Positions 35,659-39,066 of a DNA stretch of 64,000 bases are shown piece by piece. The stretch covers positions 1 through 64,000 of the forward strand of contig NC_015474.1 in assembly GCF_000211475.1 (NCBI RefSeq). The letters run 5' to 3'. The notes beneath the pieces were generated by a model. It ran no database searches. It saw nothing but the letters and a program-made list of their open reading frames with translations, and was not told where the DNA came from. The DNA comes from Pyrococcus sp. NA2. Lineage in GTDB: Archaea > Methanobacteriota_B > Thermococci > Thermococcales > Thermococcaceae. Each line of letters opens with the position of its first letter. The first letter of the stretch is position 1. The position numbers were made by a program, and so were the translations under genes.

Positions 35659-38600
35659 ATGGCAGAAGCTGTTGGTGAAATTCCCAGTGGAGAGAAGGAG
35701 TTTGAAGAATCAACTAAGCATGTCCGCGAGATAATTGAATTTCCTGAGATAACTGAGGAGGAATTTTATGAGCTCCTAAAGAATGCCAGCAGAGGTTACG
35801 GCTCACCACTACCTCACAGAACGTACTCTTTATGTCCTGAAACTAGGAGAGTAGTTCCAGCCGTTGTTTGGGAGAAAGATGGAAAGGTGTGGATAACCAA
35901 GAAGTGTCCCGAGGGAATGGTAACTGACCTATACTACGAGGACGTTGAGTTGTATTATAGGTTCTCAAGATGGAAGTTCGAGGAGAAAAAGCTCTTCTCA
36001 GTAAACGTAGAGAATACTGGAGTGAACTGTCCCTTCGATTGTGGATTGTGCGCAAGGCACCGCTCCCACACGAGCCTCCTAAACATAGTCTTAACTAATA
36101 GATGTAATTTAAACTGTTGGTACTGCTTCCCTCCAACTGAAGAGGCTGTCTTCAAGTTCGGTGATAAAGTCGAGATAGCAACGTTCGAGGAGGTTGCGAG
36201 GAACTTCAAATTTGAACACAAGGTAGAAATAGATGGATTCAAAGGTGAATATTCAATTCCAAACAATCTATACGTGCTCACGTTTAACGATGGAAAGGCA
36301 GAATGGACGAGGGTAACTAAGTTCCTGAGAAGAAAGCACGAAGGCAAAATAAGAGTCATAAAAACAAAAACCGGAAGGACGATAAGAACTACGCCAGAAC
36401 ATAAGTTCTTCGTGTATAAGGATGGGGAACTCATTAAGAAGAGGGCTGACGAGCTAGAACCAGGAGATGAACTTGTTCTACTCTGGAGATTTGAACCAGA
36501 AGAAACCTTAACAGAAATAAACCTCCTAGAGGCATTCAAGGACTTGCCCCAGGAAGAGAAAGAGAAAATATACGTTAGAGGCATTAAGGATCTTGACTTA
36601 ACACTGCTCAAAGAAAAGTATGGTGACAAGGTTTATCACTGGATTCGCCAAGACTCAATACCACTAAACGTGTTCTATGAGCTTAACGTTGACTTGGAGA
36701 AGGAGTTTAGGCTTGGAAGGGACGCAACTAGTTATGAGTTACCTTCAAAGCTCAAAATCACACCGTCGCTGGCAAAGCTCATAGGTTACTTCGTTTCAGA
36801 TGGTAACTACTCGGATAAAGACCTTAGGATAACGACAGGACATGAAGACGTTGAGAGGGAAATAGTGAGTATCCTAGAAGAACTTGGATTGCCTTACAGC
36901 TACCTTGAGTGGGAAGGAAAGACAAAACAAATAGTCATAGGTAGTAGGCTTCTAAGACTAGTGTTCAAGCACGTCTTCAAGATTCCAGAGGGAGCATCCA
37001 ATAAGAGACTACCAGAAGGATTCTTAAGCTTCCCGTTTGAAGCTAAGGTTGCTCTATTAAGCGGACTCTTTAACGGTGATGGCTACGTTGTCAGGGGAGA
37101 ACGCCACCTTAGCATTGGATACGCCAGCGTATCCAGGGGGCTGATAAGGGACATGATTTACTTACTCGCGTCCCTGGGCATCTTTGCAAGGGTATACAGA
37201 GTTCCCAAGGAGAAGATGAAAGGAGCAAATCATGATTTATATAAGCTGTACATATCGGGAACCGACTTAGTTAAGCTCGTTGAGCTTCTCGAACTAAGGG
37301 AGGGACATAGGGAAAAGCTGGGAGAGGTTGGCAATAGAAAACCAGCAAGAATTAAGAAGATAGCGGACTTCTACATAGATATCGTTGATGAGATATCTGA
37401 AGAGGAGTACTCAGGCTACGTCTATGACCTGGAGGTAGAGAATGACAGCCACTCCTTCGTAGCTGCAGATGGAATCTTGGTTAGCAACTGCTTCTTCTAT
37501 GCCCGTGAAGGAGAACCAATTTACGAACCAACGTTGGAACAAATTAGGATGATGTTAAGGAATGCTAAGAAGCAGCACCCCATAGGAGCAAACGCGGTTC
37601 AGTTCACAGGAGGGGAGCCAACGCTTAGGGATGACCTGGTTGAGATAATAAAGATAGCAAAGGAGGAAGGGTATGATCACATACAGCTAAACACCGACGG
37701 AATAAGGCTTGCATTTGAACCTGAACTTGTGAAGAAGATAAGGGAAGCTGGAGTTAATACCTTGTACCTTAGTTATGATGGAATGACACCACAAACTAAC
37801 TGGAAGAACCACTGGGAGATACCACTAATATTCGAGAATGTGAGGAAAGCTGGAGGCCCAGGAATAGTTTTGGTCCCAACTCTAATAAGAAATGTTAATG
37901 ACCATGAAGCAGGGGCGATAATAAACTTCGGGCTGAATCACCTCGATATAGTAAGGGGAGTCAACTTCCAGCCGATATCACTCGTGGGTAGGGTTCCTAA
38001 AAAGGAGAGACAGAGGTTCAGAATAACGATAGCCGGAGCCATAAAGAAGATAGAGGATCAGACAAATGGCATAATATCAAGGGATGATTGGTATCCAATT
38101 CCAATAGCTGGCCACATAGCGAGATTCTTTGAGGTATTTACCGGAAAGAAATATTATATGACCAGTCACTTTGCCTGTGGAGCTGCAACTTACGTGTTCC
38201 TGGACAGAGAAGAGAAGAAAGTCATCCCAATTCCAAGGTTCCTTGACGTTGAAGGCTTTGTAGAGTTCCTACTTGAGAAAGCCGAAGAAATTGAGAAGGC
38301 AAGGTTCAAAGGATTGGCTAAGTTAAAGGCCATAGGAGAGACCGTATTCATAAAGTTTAAGCAATTCTACGATGAAAAGCATGCTCCAAAGGGCCTAGAC
38401 GTCCTAAGCTTGATAAAGAACGCATTTGTGCATGGAAACTATGATGCTCTTGGAAAGTTCCACCTTAATACGCTCTTCCTCGGAATGATGCACTTCATGG
38501 ACGAGTACAACTACGATGTCGAAAGGGTTGAGCGTTGTGTTATCCACTATGCAATGCCAGACGGAAGAATAGTTCCATTCTGTACTTTCAACGTCATTCC

Positions 38601-38787
38601 AGAAATATACAGGGACAAAGTTCAGAGACAGTTCAGCTACTCCTGGGAGGAGTGGAAGAAGCTTCACCCAGACTGGGACTACAAGAAGGACAAGTACTTC
38701 AGAAGTAAAGAATTTGTGGAGAAGATGAAGAGGAGTGAGCTCTATAGGAAGACGTACATAGACATAATCAATTACTTTGAGGTGTAA
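35659..38787 (+). CDS. tes: Tes-type radical SAM tetraether lipid synthase, intein-containing precursor
   Basis: A 1042-aa precursor. After removal of a 455-residue intein (156-610) the host is 587 aa. The N-terminal part has LCPETRRVVPA...KKCPEG, a rubredoxin-like pair, then CPFDCGLCARHRSHT, an auxiliary Fe-S motif. The radical SAM motif is CNLNCWY|C, completed only after splicing. VQFTGGEPTLRDDL binds SAM. This motif order matches the Methanocaldococcus Mj0619/Tes family, which joins lipid tails to form tetraethers (GDGT). Older 'MoaA-like' labels rest on the radical SAM motif only. The C-terminal half has further cysteines (HFACGAATY, VERCVIHY, PFCTFNV). ATG 35659 follows ggtgat. Confidence 0.85.
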   Translation: MAEAVGEIPSGEKEFEESTKHVREIIEFPEITEEEFYELLKNASRGYGSPLPHRTYSLCPETRRVVPAVVWEKDGKVWITKKCPEGMVTDLYYEDVELYYRFSRWKFEEKKLFSVNVENTGVNCPFDCGLCARHRSHTSLLNIVLTNRCNLNCWYCFPPTEEAVFKFGDKVEIATFEEVARNFKFEHKVEIDGFKGEYSIPNNLYVLTFNDGKAEWTRVTKFLRRKHEGKIRVIKTKTGRTIRTTPEHKFFVYKDGELIKKRADELEPGDELVLLWRFEPEETLTEINLLEAFKDLPQEEKEKIYVRGIKDLDLTLLKEKYGDKVYHWIRQDSIPLNVFYELNVDLEKEFRLGRDATSYELPSKLKITPSLAKLIGYFVSDGNYSDKDLRITTGHEDVEREIVSILEELGLPYSYLEWEGKTKQIVIGSRLLRLVFKHVFKIPEGASNKRLPEGFLSFPFEAKVALLSGLFNGDGYVVRGERHLSIGYASVSRGLIRDMIYLLASLGIFARVYRVPKEKMKGANHDLYKLYISGTDLVKLVELLELREGHREKLGEVGNRKPARIKKIADFYIDIVDEISEEEYSGYVYDLEVENDSHSFVAADGILVSNCFFYAREGEPIYEPTLEQIRMMLRNAKKQHPIGANAVQFTGGEPTLRDDLVEIIKIAKEEGYDHIQLNTDGIRLAFEPELVKKIREAGVNTLYLSYDGMTPQTNWKNHWEIPLIFENVRKAGGPGIVLVPTLIRNVNDHEAGAIINFGLNHLDIVRGVNFQPISLVGRVPKKERQRFRITIAGAIKKIEDQTNGIISRDDWYPIPIAGHIARFFEVFTGKKYYMTSHFACGAATYVFLDREEKKVIPIPRFLDVEGFVEFLLEKAEEIEKARFKGLAKLKAIGETVFIKFKQFYDEKHAPKGLDVLSLIKNAFVHGNYDALGKFHLNTLFLGMMHFMDEYNYDVERVERCVIHYAMPDGRIVPFCTFNVIPEIYRDKVQRQFSYSWEEWKKLHPDWDYKKDKYFRSKEFVEKMKRSELYRKTYIDIINYFEV
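36124..37488 (+). mobile_element. Intein with LAGLIDADG homing endonuclease
   Basis: A 455-residue in-frame intein. It begins with Cys (CFPPTEEAVFKF) and ends ...HSFVAADGILVSN, followed by a +1 Cys of the host. Block B is GRTIRTTPEHKFFVY. The endonuclease dodecapeptides are LIGYFVSDGNY (residue ~220 of the intein) and LLSGLFNGDGYVV (~315), so both LAGLIDADG motifs with acidic residues seem intact. The usual penultimate His before the terminal Asn is Ser. Insertion lies exactly before the third cysteine of the radical SAM CX3CX2C motif. Confidence 0.93.
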
Positions 38788-38790
38788 CCC

Positions 38791-39066
38791 ATGAAGGAGA
38801 TAGTAATGAAATTGAACAACTCAATAACCCACGAGGAGGCAATGGCAGTTCAGTACGAGCTCTCGAAAGAGGATGCCGTGTATAGGGCTTTCATAAATCC
38901 GTATGCAAGGATGGCAAAGATAATCTTTGATGAAAATAAAAAGGAAACCAAGGACTTGCTGAGTCTACTTGAGAAGTTTAAACCCGAGATAATTGAAGAG
39001 AGGAGTATAACCGTTGATGATGTGATAGAGAGGAGCCTAAGCTGGAAGAACATTATTAAGAGGTGA
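38791..39066 (+). CDS. Small conserved protein downstream of tes
   Basis: A 91-aa soluble protein starting three bases after tes (MKEIVMKLNNSITHEEAMAV). Its order of beta-strand, helix and strand (KEIVMKLN, HEEAMAVQYELS, AVYRAFINPYARMAKIIFD) suggests a ferredoxin-like (HMA/ACT-type) fold, but there is no CxxC metal motif. Likely cotranscribed with tes. Function unknown. Its 3' end overlaps the convergent ABC gene by 11 bases. Confidence 0.7.
   Translation: MKEIVMKLNNSITHEEAMAVQYELSKEDAVYRAFINPYARMAKIIFDENKKETKDLLSLLEKFKPEIIEERSITVDDVIERSLSWKNIIKR

Follow-up and report, generated by a model that had tools for sequence, protein, structure and literature searches.

A mobile intein interrupting the radical-SAM cluster loop of the tetraether lipid synthase of Pyrococcus sp. 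NA2, with a probably incidental redox sensitivity

An intein that interrupts the catalytic motif of a membrane lipid enzyme raises the question of whether protein splicing controls that enzyme or whether the insertion is a mobile element that the enzyme tolerates. We addressed this question at the tes locus of Pyrococcus sp. NA2, within a window of 64,000 nucleotides (contig NC_015474.1, positions 1 to 64,000). The first-pass annotation of this window had described an intein splitting the radical-SAM motif of a tetraether-lipid-synthase-type enzyme, and had proposed that splicing places a potentially conditional (redox- or temperature-dependent) switch on lipid chemistry. The reading that we favour, with a probability of about 0.8, is that of a known Tes ('MoaA') LAGLIDADG mobile intein, a selfish element residing in a single-copy tes gene, with incidental redox sensitivity.

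The tes open frame (35659-38787, plus strand) encodes 1042 aa without internal stop. Cut at the motif boundaries, it divides into an N-extein of 155, an intein of 455 and a C-extein of 432 residues (Table 1), giving a predicted spliced product of 587 aa (155 + 432). The junctions read CNLNCWY-CFPPTEEA at the upstream end and DGILVSN-CFFYAREGE at the downstream end, and the ligated exteins would carry the junction peptide CNLNCWYCFFYAR. Exteins and intein have the same GC content. The annotated boundaries, with a Cys at the start and another at +1, are correct to the base: the motif-boundary cut and the Pfam and NCBIfam ends agree with them, the NCBIfam N- and C-terminal splicing regions ending exactly at 36124 and 37488. 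Both databases place the radical-SAM halves on either side of the intein.

Table 1. Features of the tes locus (positions in the window)
Feature	Position	Strand	Basis or remark
N-extein of Tes, 155 aa	35659..36123	+	PF23545 and NF045702 matches, 7TOL alignment
CNLNCWY-C, CX3CX2C as in the precursor	36103..36126	+	last Cys is intein Cys1; C153 is Cys-3
Tes intein, 455 aa, class 1 type	36124..37488	+	Pfam, NCBIfam, motif boundaries, homologue alignment
LAGLIDADG motif 1, LIGYFVSDGN	36778..36807	+	intein residues 219-228
LAGLIDADG motif 2, LLSGLFNGDGY	37054..37086	+	intein residues 311-321
C-extein of Tes, 432 aa and stop	37489..38787	+	7TOL alignment
DUF3213 gene	38791..39066	+	PF11491

The host is the tetraether lipid synthase Tes. 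Of the family models, 'tetraether lipid synthase Tes, intein-containing' (NF045703) scores highest, with 2120.6 bits for a cut-off of 1700 over residues 1-1040 of 1040; the protein is a full-length member with no difference found, and it also matches the Tes family NF045702 (688 bits, cut-off 450). With 70 bits it falls far below the cut-off of 325 of the MoaA family TIGR02668, and a separate true MoaA is encoded in the same genome (415.5 bits). The spliced protein aligns with the solved Methanocaldococcus jannaschii enzyme MJ0619/GDGT-MAS (7TOL, 7TOM), whose cluster ligands are named in the structure paper (PMC9433317), with an E-value of 3.5e-138 over 500 residues. The two enzymes share the CX3CX2C cysteines (C149/C153/C156 in NA2), the ligands of the N-terminal (C124/C128/C131) and C-terminal (C385/C505/C520) [4Fe-4S] clusters and the equivalents of Met439, here Met489, and of Tyr459; they differ in that MJ0619, our reference, is uninterrupted. 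The N-extein holds a zinc-ribbon/rubredoxin-like segment, the N-terminal cluster motif and, of the radical-SAM cysteines, the first two (C149 and C153). The C-extein opens with Cys+1, which is Cys156 of the mature enzyme, and carries the GGEP motif, Met489 and the C-terminal cluster cysteines. CNLNCWYC of Tes aligns on CNLNCPIC of 7TOL/7TOM, which makes Cys156 (codon starting at 37489) the third of the radical-SAM cluster ligands. The annotation depended on this cysteine being the radical-SAM ligand; its assignments of host type and of an insertion in the cluster loop both hold. By homology, the predicted activity of NA2 Tes is the formation of GDGT from diether lipid.

The inserted segment has the anatomy of a class 1 intein with a LAGLIDADG homing endonuclease. 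Pfam recognises Intein_splicing (E 1e-21) and LAGLIDADG_3 (PF14528; E 1.9e-19), and the splicing blocks read TTPEH (block B), VYDxEV..H (block F) and, at the end of block G, SN. Twenty homologues are invariant at Cys1, at T90 and H93 (block B), at D435 and H443 (block F), at Asn455 and at Cys+1, which supplies the N-terminal Cys, the TxxH of block B, the C-terminal Asn and the +1 Cys of class 1. The two annotated LAGLIDADG motifs are confirmed, as is the intact frame; their acidic residues D226 and D319 are likewise invariant and, with the constraint described below, assign the segment to the LAGLIDADG homing endonucleases. The penultimate residue is Ser in 20 of the 20 homologues instead of the more usual His. 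This substitution may slow asparagine cyclisation, and splicing could accordingly be slow and conditional; evidently, however, the residue has long been tolerated. Compared with PI-PkoII and other Thermococcales LAGLIDADG inteins (2cw7 and others), the splicing domain and two-motif endonuclease are recognisable (E 4e-24), but the Tes intein is distant (about 30% identity to other Thermococcales inteins), has another host and site, and differs in its penultimate Ser. The same codon boundary is occupied by homologous insertions in 22 recovered cases, far beyond chance. Cys-3 and Cys1 are both present in all 22 intein-bearing loci (20 distinct genomes), and Cys1 is the sole cysteine of the intein in all 18 Thermococcales-type copies, so that within one precursor only host cysteines can be its intramolecular disulfide partners. 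Cysteine counts of other intein-bearing Thermococcales proteins, taken over whole frames, were too coarse to serve as a yardstick for this solitary cysteine. An AlphaFold2 model of the precursor, built with five aligned precursors, had a mean pLDDT of 54, with junction regions mostly below 50.

The proposal that the catalytic cluster can form only after splicing stands in part. In the precursor the CX3CX2C motif is already formally complete, because Cys1 of the intein takes the place of the third cysteine (CNLNCWYC), and binding of a metal or cluster at this place is conceivable in principle. Nevertheless the catalytic barrel would be unassembled and, since it is interrupted by 455 residues, the precursor cannot be a competent enzyme. 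That splicing must precede any working Tes is supported by the single gene above the Tes cut-off in the NA2 genome.

A redox-sensitive intein in this setting has in fact been published under another name. In the P. abyssi MoaA intein, a native disulfide between Cys-3 and Cys1 controls splicing (Callahan et al. 2011, as reported in PMC3922620 and PMC10663303), and reviews treat it as naturally redox-regulated and explain this through the oxygen lability of MoaA. We identified one of our genomes as P. abyssi GE5 from its second contig, which is plasmid pGT5 at 100% identity. Its single tes gene, at about 657.7-660.9 kb of the chromosome, is a 1052-aa frame split by an intein 93% identical to that of NA2, in a host 95% identical, with the same insertion site and the same flanking CWY-C. 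Among its MoaA-like radical-SAM genes only tes has an intein-sized frame, and its true MoaA is an uninterrupted frame of 329 aa (414.5 bits). Because the true MoaA lacks an intein, and because the published partners Cys-3 and Cys1 fit CWY-C of tes, the published 'MoaA' redox-trap intein is almost certainly the Tes intein. The intein itself is thus already known, from the NF045703 model and the P. abyssi copy; what differs is the host, named there as a molybdenum-cofactor enzyme and here as Tes, and it is for the P. abyssi copy that the redox trap is known. Our full-text search found no paper linking the intein to Tes or to tetraethers; three papers mention both inteins and tetraethers, and the titles, abstracts and passages covered do not connect the two. 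Such a paper may exist beyond the literature searched; the link made here is our own. If the host is Tes, the redox switch acts on lipid chemistry rather than on molybdenum-cofactor synthesis. What should then be measured is the membrane tetraether/diether ratio, which is easy to assay, and close intein-free species provide natural controls.

We sampled 94 species-level Thermococcales genomes, 87 of which gave a tes match. Genes were scored by query coverage and frame length, together with an intein search, and two fragments not covering the site left 85 scorable. The intein is present in 17 and the gene uninterrupted in 68. Within the genus Pyrococcus the intein occurs in NA2 and P. abyssi only and is lacking in seven others. 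The empty-site comparison suggested in the annotation gives CNL(S/N)CWYCFFYA in relatives from the genus and from the family. Mapped on a 64-sequence host tree, the intein trait calls for 13 changes, and well-supported branches force no fewer than 10 gains or losses; placing all carriers of the intein in one clade is rejected (p-AU 4e-63). One locus was left out of the final tree, being no empty site but a MAG contig end at which an intein-bearing gene is broken off. GDGT is made by T. kodakarensis KOD1. In one complete Thermococcus-group genome of 2,088,737 bp (G023), neither tes nor any of the three tes-locus neighbours was found; since the neighbours are missing too, a missing or rearranged block is likelier than loss of the gene.

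Pairwise comparisons show that the Tes intein is a mobile element. The inteins of loci L049 and L050 differ at 0 of 1365 nt while their hosts have a dS of 0.37, and the differences begin within 60 nt on either side of the intein; identical inteins in diverged hosts are the signature of recent horizontal homing. In the pair L054 and L055 the intein dS (1.15) exceeds that of the host (0.41), which indicates separate acquisitions. The two Pyrococcus copies look old and constrained: between NA2 and P. abyssi, dN/dS is 0.018 for the host and 0.034 for the intein, and the splicing and endonuclease parts are both under constraint (0.02-0.04; endonuclease part 0.038). Traces of co-conversion were sought in the codons around the site; there are suggestive cases (AGY versus TCN serine) and no clean separation. 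Asn or Ala, as against Ser, at position -4 was considered as a marker of the intein allele, a pattern that first came from the first 30 empty sites, and was dropped when Asn appeared in more Pyrococcus empty sites.

The same tes site is also occupied outside Thermococcales. In two genomes of one other archaeal phylum (loci L082 and L092), Tes lies inside the Thermococcales tree, with one Thermococcales genus, so that gene and intein probably moved together. The DUF3213 gene adjoins tes in these two loci as well, and the whole cassette (tes, intein and DUF3213) has apparently been transferred; alternatively, its presence in that phylum may reflect mis-binning. Two small-genome archaea have the site occupied within a native-looking Tes, with long branches and unsure positions on the Tes tree. 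A third small genome (G100; L090:437-3631) contains a Tes intein of another kind, whose first residue is Ser and whose +1 residue is Thr; it splits the SAM-contacting motif at QF-TGG, and the flanking motif in this protein is GGNP instead of GGEP. Both active-site motifs of Tes are thus hit by inteins, as is usual for homing elements aimed at conserved codons.

The mechanism that we propose for NA2 would follow the class 1 pathway. An N-S acyl shift at Cys1 would be followed by transfer to Cys+1 (mature Cys156), and cyclisation of Asn455 would lead to ligation into CNLNCWY-CFFYA, the spliced 587-aa protein being the only working Tes. Splicing should be efficient enough in reducing, growing cells to sustain normal tetraether levels. 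Oxidation could hold the precursor through a disulfide that joins Cys1 to Cys-3, itself a cluster ligand; such a trap would most simply be a by-product of the homing endonuclease cut site and not a conserved regulator. At optimal growth P. abyssi lipids comprise 83.4% GDGT and 16.5% diether (PMC7137397, Table 1), a GDGT fraction among the highest in that table of 51 strains. With a single, intein-split tes, splicing evidently works and is not limiting in growing P. abyssi; from these lipids and from the constraint on host and intein, we infer that NA2 splices in the same way. These lipids also speak against a dead, non-splicing intein that inactivates Tes in NA2, given the 93% identity of the two inteins. 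To this reading, which nothing was found to favour and which is strained by intact catalytic residues throughout, strongly constrained host exteins and a single Tes in the genome, we give next to no credence.

Another question is whether the intein is kept for its redox response, oxidation trapping the precursor and sparing an oxygen-labile [4Fe-4S] enzyme until reducing conditions allow tetraether synthesis to resume. The published Cys-3/Cys1 control of the P. abyssi copy and the same proposal made in reviews (PMC10663303, PMC3922620) argue for this, as do the occurrence of both cysteines in every intein-bearing Tes seen, the solitary Cys1 of the Thermococcales-type copies and the strong purifying selection on the Pyrococcus intein. 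However, Cys-3 is a cluster ligand and does not vary among Tes proteins, whether they hold an intein or not, so that its conservation says nothing on regulation; the trap, an automatic consequence of the insertion site, requires no selection to explain it. Most relatives make tetraethers without the intein, which renders a switch possible but optional. Sporadic gain and loss with recent homing fit a selfish element, and enzyme already spliced would not respond, the trap touching new synthesis only. We therefore consider this adaptive role unlikely and the trap probably incidental; since a mobile element carries this same trap, caution is due in naming it an adaptation. Temperature-conditional splicing, by which growth temperature would set the tetraether fraction, is more improbable still. 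It has a precedent in the P. horikoshii RadA intein (PMC5790916), and the invariant penultimate Ser may slow Asn cyclisation, but intein-free relatives also have mixed di- and tetraether membranes and the GDGT fraction of P. abyssi is high. A further, rather doubtful idea is that an iron-sulfur cluster or metal binds C149, C153 and Cys1 in the precursor and blocks splicing, much as zinc inhibits the mycobacterial DnaB intein (PMC7360933). If true, the intein would read iron-sulfur or metal status in addition to thiol redox and gate membrane-monolayer synthesis. The conditional switch of the annotation thus survives as the trap published for P. abyssi; as a physiological control point it is not borne out, since about 80% of the tes genes of Thermococcales lack the intein, which is homing-like in its behaviour and compatible with abundant GDGT in P. 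abyssi.

Two further features of the locus deserve mention. The DUF3213 gene (PF11491) starts 3 nt past the tes stop and accompanies tes in all 61 untruncated Thermococcales loci examined. Our literature search found no paper naming this neighbour of tes, and its product is a candidate Tes partner or regulator. The other feature is the rubredoxin-like iron site region (35833-35907, Tes residues 59-83). Two of the four iron ligands of MJ0619, C12 and H36, are missing in NA2 and in all Thermococcales Tes examined, being replaced by Thr or Ser and by Gly or Ser, respectively, while C9 and C33 are retained. The metal site is thus probably absent or altered in Thermococcales Tes; the C..C/C..H pattern is kept in Tes of the other archaea sampled (L083, L090, L091, L109 and L110).
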